58,600 nucleotides of DNA from the NCBI GenBank assembly GCA_012719395.1, contig JAAYAL010000033.1, positions 1-58,600 on the forward strand. Direction: 5' to 3'. Source of the stretch: Gaiellales bacterium. GTDB taxonomy: Bacteria; Actinomycetota; Thermoleophilia; RBG-16-64-13. Both the position numbers and the translations under genes were made by a program. Below are positions 27,414 to 54,106 of the stretch, piece by piece; position 1 is the stretch's first letter, and the number at the start of each line of letters is the position of its first letter. A model generated the notes under the pieces. That model had not been told where the DNA came from. It was given only the letters and a program-made list of their open reading frames with translations, and ran no database searches.

Positions 27414-27508
27414 CGGAGCGGCATGGGAATCGAACCCACCCTGGACGGGGCTACCGCCCAACAACCGGTTTTGAAGACCGGGCCGGCCACCAGACCGGGC
27501 GCCGCTCC
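27414..27508 (-). tRNA. selC: tRNA-Sec (anticodon UCA)
   Basis: A 95-nt selenocysteine tRNA on the minus strand. The 8-bp acceptor stem GGAGCGGC/GCCGCTCC has discriminator G. The D-stem is long, 6 bp (CCGGTC with GGCCGG). The anticodon arm CCGGT-CTTCAAA-ACCGG carries TCA. A long variable arm follows, then the T-arm with loop TTCGATT. These are the hallmarks of bacterial tRNA-Sec. CCA is not encoded. It is the last element of the selA-selB-DUF89-selC array, all on one strand. Confidence 0.95.
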
Positions 27509-44594: not shown

Positions 44595-45680
44595 CTACAG
44601 CCGGTCCCGAAGCCAGCTGCTGACTTCCCCCGCGAGCTCGAAGCAGCGAGCGGCCGTGGCCGGGGGAAGCGCCCCCGTGCCGCAGGCGGGAGAGACGAAA
44701 GACTGCGCGAGAATGGCCTCCTCGGCAATCCCCACCTCGTTCCCCAGTGTCTCAGCCGCCGCCAGCACGCTGGCCCCCGCGCTCTCCGCGGAGAGCGACA
44801 ATGCGCGATCGTCGTTGGGCACAACTCCCCAGGCAAGCATGCCCCCTTCGTCAAGGAAGACGCCCACGGGCCCGGCATTGGCCAGAAGCGCGTCCACGTG
44901 ATCAGCCGCATCGAAGTTCAGGAGATCCAGCGGCAAACGGGTCACCTTGGCCCAGTCGGTCCCTCCGCAGATATGGATGCCGCGTAGACACTCCACGGCC
45001 CCAACCACCCTCCGCAGGGCGGGAACCACCAGATTGTCCGGCATGGACAAGTACCCCGATCCCCACTGCGCCAGGAAGGGCTCATCCACCATCATCAGCA
45101 CCTGCCCGGTGGCAGCGAGGGGTCGCAGGAACTGCTCCTGCCAGCGCGCCCGGGCCGCCAGCATCTCGGTAGCCACTTCACGCATGGTGTCATCGTAGAA
45201 GAGGGCGCGCTTGTCCAGAAAAGCAGTGGACATGCAGAGAGAGACCGGCCCGGTCACCTGTCCCTTCAGCAGCCGAGGAGGACGTTCCATTTCCCGCAGC
45301 ACCGCCGGCAGACCGTGTAGACCGGCCGCGTGGTCCGCCCCAATTCCGAAAGCCTGCGGATCGCCGGCTTCCAGCCGCTCCATGAAGGCGGCCAACTCCT
45401 CCACGGGCAACTCCTCCACCACCCAGGCACGACCGGCAGCCACGTCTACCTTGAGACCCGGAAGGCCTTCCGCAAACTGCACGTACATGTTCTCCAGAAA
45501 CGACCGCCGCGGCAGTTGCGGCCACGCCATGACCTCCGGTGTGGTGCGCAACAGAAGCTGATAGGCCTCCGCAGCGTCCGCATAGGGAACCGAACCCACG
45601 GCCATGGGAGCACAGCGCGGCGACCACACGCCGCCGCCGTTCCCGGAATCTATCAGTCCGGTTCTACGGAACCCTCTCAT
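44595..45680 (-). CDS. MetE/UroD-fold methionine-synthase-like protein
   Basis: A 361-residue protein of the cobalamin-independent methionine synthase (MetE C-terminal)/UroD-like fold. Visible elements are KGQVTGPVSLCM, MVDEPFLAQWGSG, GIHICGGTDWAKV with the zinc-type His and Cys, and a late Cys in SPACGTGALP. It lacks the N-terminal MetE half, so it is a stand-alone single domain as in archaeal and corrinoid-linked MtxA/Core-MetE proteins. The methyl donor is unknown. The ATG at 45680 overlaps the transglutaminase stop (ATGA). Confidence 0.75.
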   Translation of the reverse strand: MRGFRRTGLIDSGNGGGVWSPRCAPMAVGSVPYADAAEAYQLLLRTTPEVMAWPQLPRRSFLENMYVQFAEGLPGLKVDVAAGRAWVVEELPVEELAAFMERLEAGDPQAFGIGADHAAGLHGLPAVLREMERPPRLLKGQVTGPVSLCMSTAFLDKRALFYDDTMREVATEMLAARARWQEQFLRPLAATGQVLMMVDEPFLAQWGSGYLSMPDNLVVPALRRVVGAVECLRGIHICGGTDWAKVTRLPLDLLNFDAADHVDALLANAGPVGVFLDEGGMLAWGVVPNDDRALSLSAESAGASVLAAAETLGNEVGIAEEAILAQSFVSPACGTGALPPATAARCFELAGEVSSWLRDRL

Positions 45681-48058
45681 GTCCACGCTTTCCCCTTGGC
45701 CTCTGGCGGCCGGCCCTGAAGGCCCGCTTTCGCAGCGGCACGGCCCGGCGACACGGGGATACCGTACCACGCCCGCAAAGAACGCGACCAACCCCGAGTC
45801 GTGCGCAGCCGGCGGCGGACCCTCGCCGCCAGACCGCGGGCGTAGGCAACCTCCTCCTCGTCAACCTCCAGGGCACCAAAGGCCGCTCCCTGCCCCTTCT
45901 CCACGAGCGGACGGAGATCGATGCCCAACCGCGCATCCACCAACTCCGCCACTTCGTCCAGCGTGAGAGAGGGGGCCACGTAGACTCCCCAGGCCTTCAT
46001 GTCCGCCACGAGACGCCGGATGGTAGCCCGTAGGCGTTCCTCGGGGGCACCGATGCGCGTGGGCACGTCCCTCTTGACTGCGACGAGCAACGGCCACCCC
46101 AAGGCCACGCCCGCCACCGCCACAACGACAGCCATGAAGGGTGACACACCCGCAGAGCTCTTCCCCGCCCCGATGCCTCCCCCAAGCGGAAGCCCGCCCT
46201 CTTCCGGGGCCTGCCCGGACGCGGCCGGTTGACCGGTCTCGGAAGGGAGTGTCGATGCCGTTGTCGGAGACGACTCCGGATACGGATCAACGAAACCGGC
46301 ATTGGCCAACGACACACCCGGTGCTCCGACGGTCCGGCCCGGCGTGGGGTCGAAGGAAAGCCAACCATAGCCAGGGAAGTACGCTTCCACCCACGCGTGG
46401 GCGTTATTGGTGGTGACCTGATACACGTGGCTCGCGATCTCCTCCCCGGTGACGAAACCCACCGCCACCCGGGCCGGGATACCGTTCAACCGCAGCAGCA
46501 GCGCCATGGCCCCCGCGAAGTGCTGGCAGAACCCCTGCTTCGTGTCCAGCAGGAAGGCAGCGTACGCGGAGCGCATGGAGGAGGCGCGGGGCTCCAGTTC
46601 GTACCGGTAGTGAGTGCGAAGGTAGCGCTCAATGCGAAGGGCCACTTCATAGGGATCGTCGGCCTCTCCCACTATGCTGTCATTGAGAGCATAGATGCCC
46701 TGGAACTCCGCTACCCAACGGCCGGCAGTCTCCCCCTGCCCAAGCCATTCCTGATCCACGCCTCCGGCCTGGCGTGCTTCCTCCGCCGTGGGCAGGGGAA
46801 GATCCTCGTACAGTAGCTTGACGGTCTCCGGGTAATCCCTTCCCAGCCCCACCAGGTCTTCAGGCCGGACCTGGGGTATGACTACTTCAACAGCATACTG
46901 GAACCGCGGCCCGAGGCTCTTCTCCGCCCTGAGAGCCATGGCGCTCGAGCTGTAGACCCGCACCGCCTCCCCCAGAGTCAGCCGCGTGGGGTAGCCGCCG
47001 GTGAACAAATAGGTGGTATGGAGGCCATCGACTTCGAACGTCTGCGTCGCCTTCCTGCCCAGGATCGGCTGCTCACCCGCCGGGACATCCCTGATCATGT
47101 CCACGCCGTCGACCTGCGTGAGGAAAGTGCCCCGGCTGATCCAGGAATCCCCGGTGAACACATCAAGCACGTTGGCGCGCCAGTAGGTGACCACGGGGGA
47201 GGTGACACGCATGATGGGGTAGTCTCTATCGGGGTCCAGGAGAAGCGGGTAGTTCTGGCGCCAGTTGAACACAACCTCCGGTCCCGGCGCTAGTCGGAAC
47301 GGGTCCCATCCGGCCAATTGGGGCAGGCCGGGGTGAGCCAGGGTGGGGACAACCGTGAGCAGGCCCAGGGCGAGAAAGGCTGCGAAAGCCGAGAGGCCCA
47401 GACCGAGCCCGACGGACCGCGCCCCCGGCCGCACTCGCCGGCCTGTGCGGGTGAGAGCAAGCGTCAGGCCGAACAGGACCAGGAAGCCCATCGCCGCCCA
47501 CAACCCATGGCTCTCGCGGTTGATGCCACAGCACATCCCGATGATGACGCCCAGGACCCCCATCCCCAAGAGCGGTCGGTACAGCGAGACACCCAGCAAG
47601 CAGGCCAGCCAGGCGACCGCATACCACACCGTTGCCACCAACAACCGCATCTCCGGCGCCCCGTCCAGCGTCAGGGGATACACGTCTTGCCGGTAGGACA
47701 CCGCGCCCAAGCGCATCGCGTCAACGTAGTAGGCAACCTGCTCCAGCAGGTCCATCTGCGCACCGGGCTCTCCCGCCGGTTGAGGCAGGGGCATCACCAC
47801 CCACCACACCACATACAGGGCAAAGATGCCGAACGGAATGGAAAGGAACCACATTCTGCGGTACACAAGCCCAGGGAGGCCGGCAAGGAGCGCAAGCCCG
47901 GCGGCAAGCAGCAGAGCCGCAGTCAGGGGTTGGGCCAGGACCATGTTGACCGACAGCACCGTCAACGCAAGCACCCCGGCGACGGTGGAAACGTATGCCA
48001 CCTGCCCGAGAAGGGAGCCCGGGTGCCATTTCGAACCGGTGGCAGGTGGCCGAGCCAC
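45677..48058 (-). CDS. Membrane transglutaminase-like protein
   Basis: A 793-residue protein. The N-terminal third holds about six helices. A transglutaminase-like core follows with catalytic Cys in QGFCQHFAGAMALLL, His in NNAHAWVEAYFPGYGW and Asp in SFDPTPG. One further helix (VVVAVAGVALGWPLLVAV) precedes a C-terminal DUF4129-like tail. This is the third member of the common MoxR-DUF58-transglutaminase trio. A GTG start lies 6 nt after the DUF58 gene. The trio is thought to process or assemble cell-envelope proteins; its substrate is unknown. Confidence 0.9.
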   Translation of the reverse strand: MARPPATGSKWHPGSLLGQVAYVSTVAGVLALTVLSVNMVLAQPLTAALLLAAGLALLAGLPGLVYRRMWFLSIPFGIFALYVVWWVVMPLPQPAGEPGAQMDLLEQVAYYVDAMRLGAVSYRQDVYPLTLDGAPEMRLLVATVWYAVAWLACLLGVSLYRPLLGMGVLGVIIGMCCGINRESHGLWAAMGFLVLFGLTLALTRTGRRVRPGARSVGLGLGLSAFAAFLALGLLTVVPTLAHPGLPQLAGWDPFRLAPGPEVVFNWRQNYPLLLDPDRDYPIMRVTSPVVTYWRANVLDVFTGDSWISRGTFLTQVDGVDMIRDVPAGEQPILGRKATQTFEVDGLHTTYLFTGGYPTRLTLGEAVRVYSSSAMALRAEKSLGPRFQYAVEVVIPQVRPEDLVGLGRDYPETVKLLYEDLPLPTAEEARQAGGVDQEWLGQGETAGRWVAEFQGIYALNDSIVGEADDPYEVALRIERYLRTHYRYELEPRASSMRSAYAAFLLDTKQGFCQHFAGAMALLLRLNGIPARVAVGFVTGEEIASHVYQVTTNNAHAWVEAYFPGYGWLSFDPTPGRTVGAPGVSLANAGFVDPYPESSPTTASTLPSETGQPAASGQAPEEGGLPLGGGIGAGKSSAGVSPFMAVVVAVAGVALGWPLLVAVKRDVPTRIGAPEERLRATIRRLVADMKAWGVYVAPSLTLDEVAELVDARLGIDLRPLVEKGQGAAFGALEVDEEEVAYARGLAARVRRRLRTTRGWSRSLRAWYGIPVSPGRAAAKAGLQGRPPEAKGKAWT

Positions 48059-48064
48059 CGCTGC

Positions 48065-49327
48065 CTAACCCGTAACGGGGAGCGACGTGGTGATCCCCCC
48101 CGTTGGTATTGCCGCCCGGCCCAGCGCGCTCAACGCTTCCCCCGGATCGTCATCACGCCTGAGAAACAGCACATTGACGCCCGACCGCTGCAAGGAGAGG
48201 AGAAAAGCCCTCTCATTGACGCCGGGAGGCTCCCCCCGGAAGGAAGAGGGGGACACGTGAACCAGCAGGACAGGCACTCGGCGCTCAGCCAGACGAAGCA
48301 GCGGGAGTTGCAGCGACCGATCCCAGGTGGAGGACACGACCATGAGGCAGGTGTTGCGGGAGATCCGGGTCAGCGAGCGGCTGATGACATCTCCCAGAGG
48401 GCCCGGTGCAGTGGGAGAAGCCTGGGCCAGCAGTTCCCGCAGGTGGTGCCGACCGGCAGGCGTGCTCTCCAGCGTCACCGGCGTCTCGTCCTTGCCGTGT
48501 AGAACCAGATCCAGGGGGACCCCACGCTCCAAGAGGGTATCGGCCAGCGTACCGGCGGCCACGATAGATTTCTCGAAAGTATCGAGGGGCCTCTCGCCCA
48601 CCACCGCCTGCGCCCATCCATCGACCAGAACAACATTCTCCGCCCGCGGGGCTTCCTCCGTCTCGCGCAGCATGAGGACGCCTGTCTTGGCCGTGCTCTT
48701 CCAATGCACTCGGCTGAGCGGCTCACCCGGCTGGTGAGGCCGGATGCCGCGGAATTCTCCCGCCCCCTTCACGCTGGTCCCCGGCTTCAATCCGATCCCC
48801 AACACCCGGCCGGCCAGCAGCTCGAAGTCCTCGATCCTGCTCAACCGCGGCAACACGAGCAGCGTGGTGCTCCCATCCTGCGGGCTGCGACGCTCGGCCA
48901 GACCCAACGGATCGCCGGCCGCCACCTCTCCGCACGGCAACTCGTAACTGCCGCGCCACAAAGCACCCGAGCGGGTGGTTCCCCGTTTGGCCCGGCCGGG
49001 GAGCAGAACGGCCGCTGCGCACTCCGCGACCCCTCCACCAGCGGCCGAGAGGTCCAGCCGCGCACGGCAACCGAGCGCGGGGAACCAGGACCGGTTCTCC
49101 ACCTGCAGCCTAGCCTCCACGCGGTCACCGGAGACCACCGTCTCCGGGTCCAACGCCACCCCCAGGTGCAGCGAGCGCGAAGCCACTCCCGTCCACAGCC
49201 AGGAGACGACCACCAGCAAGGTCAGGGCATAGGCGACCAGATACAGTTCCACAGTGCCGAACAGGCGCCCGTTCACGTAGAAGGCGGCTGCCAGCAAGAG
49301 TACTCCCAGTCCCCTGACGGTGGGCAT
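48065..49327 (-). CDS. DUF58 (vWA-like) membrane protein
   Basis: A 420-residue protein with two N-terminal helices and the DUF58 signature FRGIRPHQPGEPLSRVHWKS, followed by a von Willebrand A-like domain (VLVDGWAQ). DUF58 proteins act with MoxR ATPases as client or adaptor. It lies between moxR and the transglutaminase in one operon. Confidence 0.93.
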   Translation of the reverse strand: MPTVRGLGVLLLAAAFYVNGRLFGTVELYLVAYALTLLVVVSWLWTGVASRSLHLGVALDPETVVSGDRVEARLQVENRSWFPALGCRARLDLSAAGGGVAECAAAVLLPGRAKRGTTRSGALWRGSYELPCGEVAAGDPLGLAERRSPQDGSTTLLVLPRLSRIEDFELLAGRVLGIGLKPGTSVKGAGEFRGIRPHQPGEPLSRVHWKSTAKTGVLMLRETEEAPRAENVVLVDGWAQAVVGERPLDTFEKSIVAAGTLADTLLERGVPLDLVLHGKDETPVTLESTPAGRHHLRELLAQASPTAPGPLGDVISRSLTRISRNTCLMVVSSTWDRSLQLPLLRLAERRVPVLLVHVSPSSFRGEPPGVNERAFLLSLQRSGVNVLFLRRDDDPGEALSALGRAAIPTGGITTSLPVTG

Positions 49328-49349
49328 TGACCCCTCCCCGGTGAAACGC

Positions 49350-50330
49350 TCAGAGGGTAGGCACCGGCACCGCCCTCAGGATGGCAGAGACAATATCCGT
49401 GGCCGACCTCCCATGCATGCGCGCCTCGGGCGAGAGAATGAGTCGGTGGGCCAACACACTCACGGCCAGGTGCTTGACATCCTGGGGAATCACGTATTCG
49501 CGCCCACGTATGAGCGCCAAGGCGCGAGCGGCCGCGGCCAGGGCCAACCCCGCCCGAGGGCTGGCCCCCAGATAGAGGTCCGTATGGGAACGCGTGGCGC
49601 CTACAACCCGCAGCAGGTACTCGCCGACCGCACCCACCATACGGACGGAGGCTGCGCAGTCCATCATGTCCAGCAACTGCTGGACGCCGACCACCACCGG
49701 CACCTTCTCCACCAGGTCCTCCGCACCGCTCTGGGCCAGCAGGCGCAGTTCCTCCTCCGGCGCCGGATACCCCAGACCCAGCCGCATCATGAAACGGTCC
49801 AACTGCGCTTCCGGCAGTTCGTAGGTGCCCTCGTATTCAATGGGGTTCTGGGTGGCGACCACCATGAACGGCCTCTCCAGGGGGTAGGTGACGTTCTCGA
49901 CGGTCACCTGCCGTTCCTGCATGCATTCCAGCAAGCTGGATTGCGTCTTAGGTGAGGCGCGGTTTATCTCATCCGCCAGAACCACATTGGCGAAGATGGG
50001 GCCGGGGCGGAAATCGAACTCACCGGTGCGCTGATTGAAGACGTTCACACCGGTGATATCGCTGGGAAGGAGGTCCGGGGTGAACTGGATGCGGGAGAAG
50101 CGGCAGTCGATGCAGCGAGCAAGGGATTTGGCAACCAGGGTCTTGCCCACCCCGGGGAAATCCTCGATCATCAGATGCCCGCCGGCCAGCAGCGTGACAA
50201 TGCAGAGCTCCACTGCCTCGCTCTTCCCCAGGAAGGCGGCGGAGACGCCGGCGTGAATCTCAGCCGCCAGCCGAGCCGCCGGCCCAAGGCCCATCTTGCT
50301 GCCAGGGAGCCTCGAAAGCGCCTGTGTCAC
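49350..50330 (-). CDS. moxR: MoxR-family AAA+ ATPase
   Basis: A 326-residue AAA+ chaperone. Walker A lies in EDFPGVGKTLVAKSLA, Walker B in VVLADEINRASPKTQSSLLECM, and sensor 1 in VVATQNPIEYEGTYELPEAQLDRFMMR. MoxR proteins remodel vWA partners, here the adjoining DUF58 protein. It is the first gene of the unit and divergent from the ileS leader. Confidence 0.95.
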   Translation of the reverse strand: MTQALSRLPGSKMGLGPAARLAAEIHAGVSAAFLGKSEAVELCIVTLLAGGHLMIEDFPGVGKTLVAKSLARCIDCRFSRIQFTPDLLPSDITGVNVFNQRTGEFDFRPGPIFANVVLADEINRASPKTQSSLLECMQERQVTVENVTYPLERPFMVVATQNPIEYEGTYELPEAQLDRFMMRLGLGYPAPEEELRLLAQSGAEDLVEKVPVVVGVQQLLDMMDCAASVRMVGAVGEYLLRVVGATRSHTDLYLGASPRAGLALAAAARALALIRGREYVIPQDVKHLAVSVLAHRLILSPEARMHGRSATDIVSAILRAVPVPTL

Positions 50331-50435: not shown

Positions 50436-50690
50436 CCAACGGCTATGACGGGAACGAGTAGATCTTGCTCATCCGCTTAGCGAGCCGGGGACGGTGTGAG
50501 CCCGGCCGGAACGGAGATCGAAAATCATCCCCGAGCCGCCAGCCGAAAGGCGGCTGACTGGGACGGTCGCGGCGGAGTTCTTCCTGCTAATCAGGGTACG
50601 TCCGCTGAGTCTACCTGAGGTGGACCCCCTCGACCAGCCTGATCTCGCCGAGTAGACCTGGCCGGGTCCTTCCCGTGACAGAAGGAGGGC
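50436..50690 (+). promoter_or_regulatory. T-box riboswitch of ileS (Ile specifier AUC)
   Basis: Stem I elements typical of actinobacterial ileS leaders are present: ACGAGTAG (50454-50461) as the 5' side of the specifier loop, and AUC (50517-50519) followed by GAA on the 3' side. This reads Ile. Between them lies AGCGAGCCGGGG...GGTGTGAGCCCGG. A small hairpin AGCCGAAAGGCGGCT follows. The T-box bulge is less clear: TGGGAC at 50559 or GGTGGACC near 50620 are the candidates. GAAGGAGG at 50681-50688 can pair with the upstream CCTTC. That suggests control of translation, as known for actinobacterial T-boxes. Confidence 0.7.
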
Positions 50691-50840
50691 GTGAACCGCA
50701 CGCGGCGCGCCCGGCGCAGCCGGCTCCCTCAGCCGTGCTGTCTCCTGGGCCATCCGCGTCTGTCCCGTCCCGACATGCACCTATGCGCAGACAGGGCGTG
50801 GATCGGCAACTTCGCCGGACCATCAGGCCTAGGAGGATGA
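50691..50840 (+). CDS. Possible 49-residue leader ORF coupled to ileS
   Basis: A GTG right after GAAGGAGGGC opens a 49-codon Arg-rich frame (start VNRTRRARRSRL, end PSGLGG). It stops at a TGA overlapping the in-frame ileS ATG at 50837. The spacing of the ribosome site is short (about 2 nt). The last codons GGA GGA TGA contain the AGGAGG that serves ileS. It may couple T-box control to ileS or may be fortuitous. Confidence 0.3.
   Translation: MNRTRRARRSRLPQPCCLLGHPRLSRPDMHLCADRAWIGNFAGPSGLGG
50742..50835 (+). promoter_or_regulatory. Possible sequestering stem over the ileS ribosome site
   Basis: CTCCTGGGCC (50742-50751) can pair over 10 bases, with one G-U, with GGCCTAGGAG (50826-50835), which covers the ileS Shine-Dalgarno. 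It would hide the site unless a ribosome or the T-box opens it. Confidence 0.4.
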
Positions 50841-50845
50841 GACCG

Positions 50846-53800
50846 TTGACCGAACGAGCCGCCAACCAGCCCCACCGTCCCGATACAGACGGCAAACGCA
50901 CAGACGGCAAACGTCTCTATCGCGCCGTGGATCCAGGGCAATCCCTGCCCGCCCTGGAAGAGGGGATTCTCCAGTGGTGGAAGAAGAACCGCATCTTCGA
51001 GAAAAGCCTGGAGTGGCGCAGAGACGCCCCGGAGTGGGTGTTCTACGAAGGCCCGCCCACGGCAAACGGCCGCCCCGGCGCCCACCACGTGCTGGCGCGG
51101 GTCTTCAAGGATATCTACCCGCGCTTCCGCACCATGCGCGGCAACTACGTCTTCCGCAAAGCCGGCTGGGATTGCCATGGGCTGCCGGTGGAGCTGGAGG
51201 TGGAACGGCAACTGGGAATCTCGCGCAAGGAGGAGATCGAAGCCTACGGCGTGGCCGCCTTCAACGAGTTGTGCAAGTCCTCGGTCAGCCGTTACGTGGA
51301 CGAGTGGCAACGCATGACCGAGCGGATCGGGTTCTGGATTGATCTGGACCAAGCGTACTGGACCATGGCCGACAGCTACATCGAATCCGTCTGGTCGATC
51401 CTGTCGGAGTTGTCGAAGAAGGGGCTGCTGTTCCAGGACTACAAGGTGGTGCCCTACTGCCCACGCTGCGGCACCGCTCTCTCCAGCCACGAACTGGCCA
51501 TGGGCTATCAGGACGTGATCGATCCTTCGGTGTTCGTGCGCTTCCCGCTGCTGGGCGCCACCGGAGAGGCCGAGCGGATCGACGGCCGGCCCGTCAGCCT
51601 CCTGGTCTGGACCACCACCCCCTGGACCCTCATCTCCAACGTAGCCGCCGCTGTGGGCCCCAAGATCCCGTACGCCCGCGTTCGTCTGGGCGAAGAGTAC
51701 CTGGTCGTGGCCGCGGACCTGGTCGACGACGTCCTAGGGCCGGAGGCAACCATCGAAGAGCAGTTTCCGGGCTCGGACCTCCTGGACCGCAACTACCGCC
51801 CACCCTACAGCTTCGTGGAGCCGGACAAGCGCGCCTGGTTTGTGATCAGCGGCGACTTCGTGAGCACGGACGAGGGAACAGGCATCGTGCACATCGCCCC
51901 CGCCTTCGGTGCCGAGGATATGGAGGTGGGCCGAGCCAACAACCTGCCCCTGGTCATGCCCGTGGACGAAGAGTGCAGGTTCACCGATGACGTCACCCCA
52001 TACAGAGGCACGTTCGTCAAAGACGCCGATGAGCGCATCATGCGCGATTTGGACGAGGCGGGCATCCTCTTCCGTCGCCTCCCCTATGAGCACAGCTACC
52101 CCTTCTGCTGGCGTTGCCACACGCCGCTGATCTACTACGCCAAGTCCTCCTGGTACATCCAGACCACGGCGCGCCGTAACGAGTTGCTGAACGCCAATGA
52201 GGAAGTCAACTGGCACCCGGAGCACCTGAAGCACGGCCGGTTCGGCAAGTGGCTGGAGAACAACATAGACTGGTCGCTCTCCCGCGAGCGTTACTGGGGC
52301 ACCCCACTCCCCGTGTGGCGCTGCTCCAACGGCCACGACCGCTGCGTGGGCTCCCGCGCAGAGCTGGCCGAGTTGGCAGGCCGTGATCTTTCGGACCTGG
52401 AGCTGCACCGCCCCTATGTGGACGAGGTCACCTTTGCCTGCCCCGAGTGCGGGGCAGAGGCGCGCCGCGTGACCGAAGTCATCGACGCCTGGTTCGATTC
52501 GGGCTCCATGCCCTTCGCCCAATGGCATTACCCCTTCGAGAACCAGGAGACCTGGAAGCAGCGCTTCCCGGCCGACTACATCTGTGAAGCCATCGACCAA
52601 ACACGTGGCTGGTTCTATAGCCTGCTGGCTATCAGCGCCCTCATGACGGACGGCCACACCTGCTACAAGAATGTGGTCTGCCTGGGCCACATCCTCGACG
52701 GCGAAGGCCGCAAGATGTCCAAGCACGTAGGCAACGTGGTCGATCCTTGGTCCGTGCTCAATAAGCAAGGAGCGGACGCTCTGCGCTGGTACCTGTTCGC
52801 TGCCAGCTCGCCCTGGTTCGCGCGCCGTTTCAGCCCGGAGCACATCGACGAAGTCATCCGCAAGTTCATCCTCACCCTGTGGAACACGTATAGCTTCTAC
52901 ACTCTCTACGCCAACATCGACGGCTTCGACCCCCGAGCCCACGATCTCCCCGTCGAGAGACGCACACTCATGGATCGCTGGATCCTCAGCGAGCTGCACC
53001 TGCTGGCCAAGAAGGTCACCGACGGCTTGGAGCAGTACGACTCCTTCGGGCCCAGCCGTGCACTCAGCGACTTCGTGGACGAGCTCTCCAACTGGTACGT
53101 TCGACGTTCTCGCCGCCGTTTCTGGAAGAGCGAGGAAGACACCGACAAGGTGGCCGCGTACCTCACGCTGTACGAATGCCTGGTCACCCTGGCCAAGCTG
53201 CTGGCACCCTACATGCCGTTCATGACCGAGGAGATCTATCGCAACCTGGTAGGCGAGCGTTACGAGGACCAGCCGGAATCGGTGCACCTGTGCGATTGGC
53301 CTGTCGCCAACGAGGCGTTCATGGACGAGGACCTCTCCTTCCGCATGGCCGCCGCGCAGAGAGTGGTGAACATGGGCCGAGCGGCGCGTATGGCATCGCA
53401 ACTCAAGGTCCGCCAGCCACTGGAGGTGGTGATGGTAGCCACTGACGCCAAACGACGCGTGGCGTTGGAGAGCTTGGCCGACGTGGTCATGGATGAACTG
53501 AACGTCAAGCGCATGGAGTTCGTGGATTCACCCGCGGAACTCGTCACCTACTCCGTCAAACCCAACTACCGCACCCTGGGGCCTCGTTTTGGCAAGTCCA
53601 TGCCACACGTGACCGCTGCCGTCGCGGACATCCCGGCTCTGGAGGCAGTCAAGCGGCTGGAGGCGGACCTGCCCCTGACAGTCACCATCGACGGTACCCT
53701 ACATGACTTGTCTCGGGAGGATCTGGTGGTGGAGACCCAGCAGAAGCAGGACTTCGCCGTGGAGAAGGAGGGCGACTTGGTCGTGGGTCTGTCCACCCGT

Positions 53801-54106
53801 CTGACCCCAGCGCTGGAGGTGGAAGGTCTGGCCCGGGAGTTGGTGCACCACGTGCAGAACACCCGTAAGGCGGCCGGGTTCCAAATCGAGGACCGGATCC
53901 AGCTGTGGGTGGAAGGTCCCGAGCAGATCTCGTCCGTGTTGGAAGCGCACAGCGAGTACGTCATGAGGGAGACACTGGCTGTTGAACTGGTCGGCCCCGG
54001 AAGCGCCGACCGCAACGATGGTCCAGTCGCGTCTCCTTCCACCCACCGCGAAGACCTGAAGGTCAACGGGCTACCGGTGAGCCTAGTGTTGCAGCGCGTG
54101 GCCTAG
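50846..54106 (+). CDS. ileS: Isoleucyl-tRNA synthetase
   Basis: A 1086-residue class I synthetase that charges tRNA-Ile. The HIGH-type motif is GRPGAHH near 75-80, the KMSKS-type motif is KMSKH near 621-625, and the editing domain lies between (CP1, with LLVWTTTPWTL). Length and the KMSKH variant fit the eukaryote-like IleRS type 2, common in Actinobacteria. I chose TTG 50846, 9 nt after AGGAGG; ATG 50837 has no spacing to that site. An in-frame GTG at 50675 would add 57 residues unlike the family. A T-box precedes it. Confidence 0.95.
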   Translation: MTERAANQPHRPDTDGKRTDGKRLYRAVDPGQSLPALEEGILQWWKKNRIFEKSLEWRRDAPEWVFYEGPPTANGRPGAHHVLARVFKDIYPRFRTMRGNYVFRKAGWDCHGLPVELEVERQLGISRKEEIEAYGVAAFNELCKSSVSRYVDEWQRMTERIGFWIDLDQAYWTMADSYIESVWSILSELSKKGLLFQDYKVVPYCPRCGTALSSHELAMGYQDVIDPSVFVRFPLLGATGEAERIDGRPVSLLVWTTTPWTLISNVAAAVGPKIPYARVRLGEEYLVVAADLVDDVLGPEATIEEQFPGSDLLDRNYRPPYSFVEPDKRAWFVISGDFVSTDEGTGIVHIAPAFGAEDMEVGRANNLPLVMPVDEECRFTDDVTPYRGTFVKDADERIMRDLDEAGILFRRLPYEHSYPFCWRCHTPLIYYAKSSWYIQTTARRNELLNANEEVNWHPEHLKHGRFGKWLENNIDWSLSRERYWGTPLPVWRCSNGHDRCVGSRAELAELAGRDLSDLELHRPYVDEVTFACPECGAEARRVTEVIDAWFDSGSMPFAQWHYPFENQETWKQRFPADYICEAIDQTRGWFYSLLAISALMTDGHTCYKNVVCLGHILDGEGRKMSKHVGNVVDPWSVLNKQGADALRWYLFAASSPWFARRFSPEHIDEVIRKFILTLWNTYSFYTLYANIDGFDPRAHDLPVERRTLMDRWILSELHLLAKKVTDGLEQYDSFGPSRALSDFVDELSNWYVRRSRRRFWKSEEDTDKVAAYLTLYECLVTLAKLLAPYMPFMTEEIYRNLVGERYEDQPESVHLCDWPVANEAFMDEDLSFRMAAAQRVVNMGRAARMASQLKVRQPLEVVMVATDAKRRVALESLADVVMDELNVKRMEFVDSPAELVTYSVKPNYRTLGPRFGKSMPHVTAAVADIPALEAVKRLEADLPLTVTIDGTLHDLSREDLVVETQQKQDFAVEKEGDLVVGLSTRLTPALEVEGLARELVHHVQNTRKAAGFQIEDRIQLWVEGPEQISSVLEAHSEYVMRETLAVELVGPGSADRNDGPVASPSTHREDLKVNGLPVSLVLQRVA

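Follow-up and report, generated by a model that had tools for sequence, protein, structure and literature searches.

The leader of ileS in the window (the whole 58,600-nucleotide stretch that was analysed) is derived from a T-box (50438–50840), and its truly unusual point is that it has no discriminator at all, not a deviating one. What defines a T-box riboswitch is that it pairs with the 3′ end of the tRNA and so tells charged from uncharged tRNA. Judged from its sequence, the tRNA-decoding half of the leader is intact, and the ileS Shine–Dalgarno sequence lies within a predicted stem. The account that we favour, and consider probable, is that a T-box leader first exchanged termination for Shine–Dalgarno sequestration and later lost the part that senses aminoacylation.

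All features lie on the forward (+) strand unless stated otherwise. The gene itself (50846–54106) most likely starts at TTG 50846, 9 nucleotides past its Shine–Dalgarno sequence AGGAGG (50831–50836); the ATG of IleS from the sister genus aligns at this codon, and AGGAGGACGAG of the sister genus aligns with the Shine–Dalgarno sequence. The two genera are joined with a tree support of 1.000, their IleS proteins are 79% identical and 60% of four-fold sites differ. Within the first ileS codons, a short direct repeat of ACAGACGGCAAACG (50884–50914) adds DGKRTDGKR to the N terminus, an extension not shared by the sister genus.

For comparison, ileS and its upstream DNA were taken from 60 related genomes, the same genomes were searched for T-boxes, named loci were fetched from a second genome collection, and the leaders were compared, folded and modelled. 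Leader anatomy was assigned after PMC7583486; folds are thermodynamic predictions that leave out tRNA and transcription kinetics. Every T-box match within the family lies before ileS and 16 of the 17 other members carry one; the remaining genome is incomplete and yielded no ileS. The T-box search gave no match in the 43 other genomes of the class that it covered.

The tRNA-decoding half

Rfam model RF00230 matches 50436–50590 with 53 bits, below its gathering score of 93, the match being good over stem I and forced beyond it. This bears out the ileS T-box leader of the preliminary description. Stem I (50438–50537) comprises a basal helix (GGCU from 50441, paired with AGCC), a K-turn region and a distal region; the window keeps 61 of the 62 positions that are invariant among 16 relatives, and compensated double changes occur in the family at 11 of 27 consensus pairs. 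The specifier is AUC (50524–50526), as had been proposed, set in a GAA-N-AUC motif that aligns in all relatives and preceding the synthetase gene that it fits (alignment with 15 relatives). It matches the tRNA-Ile(GAU) of the genome, which was found by ARAGORN and by a tRNA family search; a first pattern search for tRNA-Ile gave no match in the genome, and the family search did recover it.

Stem II (50538–50662) pairs GCCAG 50538–50542 with CUGGC 50658–50662 and carries an S-turn (GAA 50545–50547 and AGUA 50651–50654), with a variable insert between; its AGUAGA-CUGG motif is kept across 17 genomes. The stem IIA/B pseudoknot follows directly (50663–50686), formed by helix IIA (CGGG 50663–50666 with CCCG 50672–50675) and helix IIB (UCCUU 50667–50671 with AAGGA 50682–50686), and all 26 of its invariant positions are kept in the window, which thus has both the S-turn and the pseudoknot. 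For helix IIB, 98% of cells are paired and there is one double change; its covariation is no better than that of shuffles because the helix hardly varies. Beyond it lies a predicted linker helix (50687–50712; GGGCGUG 50687–50693 with CGCGCCC 50706–50712), whose homologues in relatives carry compensated changes (GGAUGU/GCAUCC, GAGCGU/GCGCUC and GAGUGUG/CGCACUC), the 3′ strand being not clearly assignable in a few.

Over the whole decoding half, the window keeps 87 of the 88 positions invariant in the 16 relatives, and departures are more numerous in some relatives whose T-boxes are intact. A Poisson bound from one change in 88 sites would place neutral divergence since the loss below about 0.054 per site. 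Such near-perfect preservation implies that the sensor was lost recently, or that this half still matters.

The missing discriminator and the expression platform

The discriminator consists of RRRxG, stem III and AA, and of a UGGN bulge between helices A1 and A2 that pairs with tRNA NCCA. As AAGTAGGGTGGTACCGCGGG...CCCGTCCCTAC it occurs in all 16 relatives with the leader, with 29 invariant columns; one relative replaces GCGGG with GCGAGG, compensated on the opposite strand. The window leader has none of it. There, an intact AGGGUGGUACC is also lacking and a discriminator covariance model (R1) scores no higher than 2.8 bits; true T-boxes of family members reach 57.6–62 bits with it, and those before ileS in distant Chloroflexi and Clostridia 22–34 bits. 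The preliminary description had read a T-box bulge deviating from consensus, and there is no bulge at all; its proposed covariance-model check is answered in part, with stem I matched by RF00230 but no discriminator in the window leader. Across the whole genome, too, the discriminator model gave no credible match (the best, a partial one, had 14.4 bits and an E value of 2.6). No credible T-box was found elsewhere there; a short-pattern search was uninformative, its reversed control giving more matches than the pattern itself.

Several local candidates were set aside. The sequence near 50594 (AGGGTACGTCC) belongs to the variable insert of stem II and is no T-box homologue. The T-box-like AGGGCGUGAACCGC (50686–50699) is linker-helix sequence, common in its first part to the sister genus, and has no UGGN. 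A relic antiterminator at 50746–50772 (UGGG..GCG..CGUCCCG) is unstable and likewise has no UGGN, and a likeness of UGGGCC/GGCCUA to the acceptor stem of tRNA-Ile was dropped as a short GC palindrome. CCGCG and TCCCGTCCCGAC (about 50754–50774) may be leftovers of the antiterminator. Three alignments of window and sister leaders are about equally good (one deletion, substitution in place, or a deletion up to the Shine–Dalgarno sequence), and their scores do not separate them.

The platform differs stepwise across the family. A terminator is present in 15 relatives: over 8–16 bp, a G-rich arm lying downstream pairs with the 3′ strand of the antiterminator, and 5–8 T in 10 bases follow. The stem I, stem II S-turn and IIA/B pseudoknot of these class I T-boxes are nearly sequence-identical to those of the window, which by comparison has no antiterminator, terminator or U tract. 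In the sister genus (L003:7–165), the T-box is intact and the terminator absent, the best partner of the antiterminator arm being GGACG in its own Shine–Dalgarno region; this pairing, too, is lacking in the window. On the modelled folds, the sister leader may be a translational T-box with a long stem I that arose in the family from a transcriptional T-box, a mode that we offer as a suggestion because the forced antisequestrator frees the Shine–Dalgarno sequence only partly in the model. In the sister genome, two contigs (L040 and L003) end and start at the T-box inside the ileS leader, with an overlap of about 30 bases.

The sister layout is of the kind described for translational (class II) T-boxes of actinobacterial ileS (Seliverstov 2005, PMC1262725), for which the Mycobacterium tuberculosis and Nocardia farcinica structures are reviewed in PMC7583486. 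The window leader resembles that class in its decoding elements before ileS, AUC specifier, lack of a terminator and Shine–Dalgarno hairpin. It differs in its long stem I, in missing the UGGN bulge, the purine string of stem III and the antisequestrator, and in that no antisequestrator 3′ strand serves as its sequestering strand.

The predicted stem over the Shine–Dalgarno sequence

The preliminary description had also proposed a 10-bp stem able to hide the ileS ribosome site, and this part holds up as a prediction beyond chance. In the predicted sequestering element (50742–50835), CUCCUGGGCC (50742–50751) pairs with GGCCUAGGAG (50826–50835) through nine Watson–Crick pairs and one G–U pair, with pair probabilities of 0.97–1.0, followed by nine and four more pairs. 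The duplex between Shine–Dalgarno sequence and leader reaches −22.4 kcal/mol, matched by 9 of 1,000 shuffles (about 1 in 100), and the element as a whole −42.9 kcal/mol (z −3.4; 1 of 500 shuffles). In the default fold the Shine–Dalgarno sequence is predicted to be sequestered, as in class II leaders, with a mean unpaired probability of 0.04 against a shuffle mean of 0.35 (12 of 400 shuffles were as low). Opening it would place the model about 9 kcal/mol above the closed fold. No antisequestrator with a T-box bulge that frees the Shine–Dalgarno sequence was found in the window; when the nearest T-box-like helix is forced, at a cost of 17 kcal/mol, most of the Shine–Dalgarno sequence stays paired. 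The stem stands as a single-genome prediction, without comparative support.

From the parts observed to be present or absent across the family, we infer the following order of events. The family ancestor would have had a full transcriptional T-box, in which uncharged tRNA-Ile would stabilize the antiterminator against a U-tailed terminator. In the common ancestor of the window genus and its sister, the terminator would have been lost and the ileS Shine–Dalgarno sequence would have joined the switch. The window genus would next have lost the discriminator (stem III purine string, UGGN bulge and antiterminator 5′ strand), its Shine–Dalgarno sequence now lying within a new, predictedly stable stem. 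Most likely, this stem would damp translation of ileS whatever the charging state of tRNA-Ile, and the decoding half would either still be able to bind tRNA-Ile or be a young relic. Some points weigh against this account. The window belongs to the one genome of its kind, in 92 contigs, so a sequence or assembly fault is possible; given how well the decoding half is preserved, either function was completely lost only recently or no complete loss took place; and the sequestering stem has no homologue for covariation. Because ileS is essential, a stem that strongly sequesters its ribosome site without regulation would be costly.

Alternative readings of the leader

The leader could still be a tRNA-Ile switch that works without a T-box bulge, binding tRNA by anticodon and body and shifting the balance of closed and open folds, so that it would sense the amount of tRNA and not its charging. 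We regard this as unlikely. The decoding half is visibly constrained although four-fold sites have diverged so far from the sister genus, and an open fold does exist in the model; against this, the tRNA 3′ end has no pairing site, the arrangement is found in no relative, and the predicted open fold uses part of 50706–50714 and so breaks the linker helix, such that stabilization by tRNA might close the site. Somewhat more doubtful is a T-box variant cut down to its decoding module, which would read tRNA-Ile by anticodon and body and relay this to the new sequestering stem; ileS would then follow the amount of tRNA-Ile and not its charging, the 3′ end going unchecked. An artefact, meaning a contig error from about 50694 to 50825 that hides a T-box still intact in the organism itself, seems improbable. 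It would fit a single genome in 92 contigs and sister contigs that also break within the ileS leader, but the stretch in question pairs with the true Shine–Dalgarno sequence in a stem that is statistically unusual, the genome has no orphan T-box elsewhere, and a single 58.6-kb contig carries both ileS and the leader, whose two ends are homologous to those of relatives.

Least probable of all, to a degree that we would call slight, is the coupled translation put forward in the preliminary description, with ribosomes starting at 50681–50693, translating a 49-codon ORF through the stem and freeing the ileS site. The ORF does span both arms of the stem and, as in leader-peptide attenuation or translational coupling, it ends in the ileS start region, stopping at 50840 between the Shine–Dalgarno sequence and the TTG start; ribosomes on it would open the stem mechanically. 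The Shine–Dalgarno-like string GAAGGAGG (50681–50688) and the open GTG frame ending in ATGA at 50837–50840 (50691–50840) exist as described, but the string consists of the helix IIB 3′ strand and the first bases of the linker helix, and 16 family relatives conserve it with or without an ORF downstream; GTG 50691 sits within the linker helix. The string is thus a conserved part of the T-box fold and not a genome-specific ribosome site. A broken frame in relatives had been named as telling against the ORF, and such breaks do occur in the sister genus, whose frame runs for 21 codons, and in most of the others; frames following the string in relatives run from 1 to 451 codons or have no start. Dinucleotide shuffling leaves the window frame open in 46% of cases; the frame scores −0.31 bits per codon (non-coding; ileS scores +0.41) and, unlike an attenuation peptide, is not rich in Ile codons, having a single one. 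No conserved translated upstream ORF was found in the window, the frame is judged not to be a gene, and the proposed leader peptide looks like chance. Coupled translation is therefore unsupported, since string and GTG lie in conserved helices and the frame is unconserved, open by chance and non-coding.

If the leader did shift to sequestration and then lose its sensor, a decoding half left almost unchanged and a platform shift traceable stepwise in the family would make it a natural test of the regulatory value of decoding without sensing. Rfam-style matches to stem I can also label as T-boxes leaders that have no functional T-box.

The surroundings of the leader gave two further observations. 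Upstream of it, a divergent run on the reverse strand (45677–50330) encodes, as named from translations, a transglutaminase-like membrane protein, a DUF58-like protein and a MoxR-like AAA ATPase. ARAGORN placed a selenocysteine tRNA with anticodon TCA at 27414–27508 (reverse strand), suggesting that the organism may use selenocysteine.
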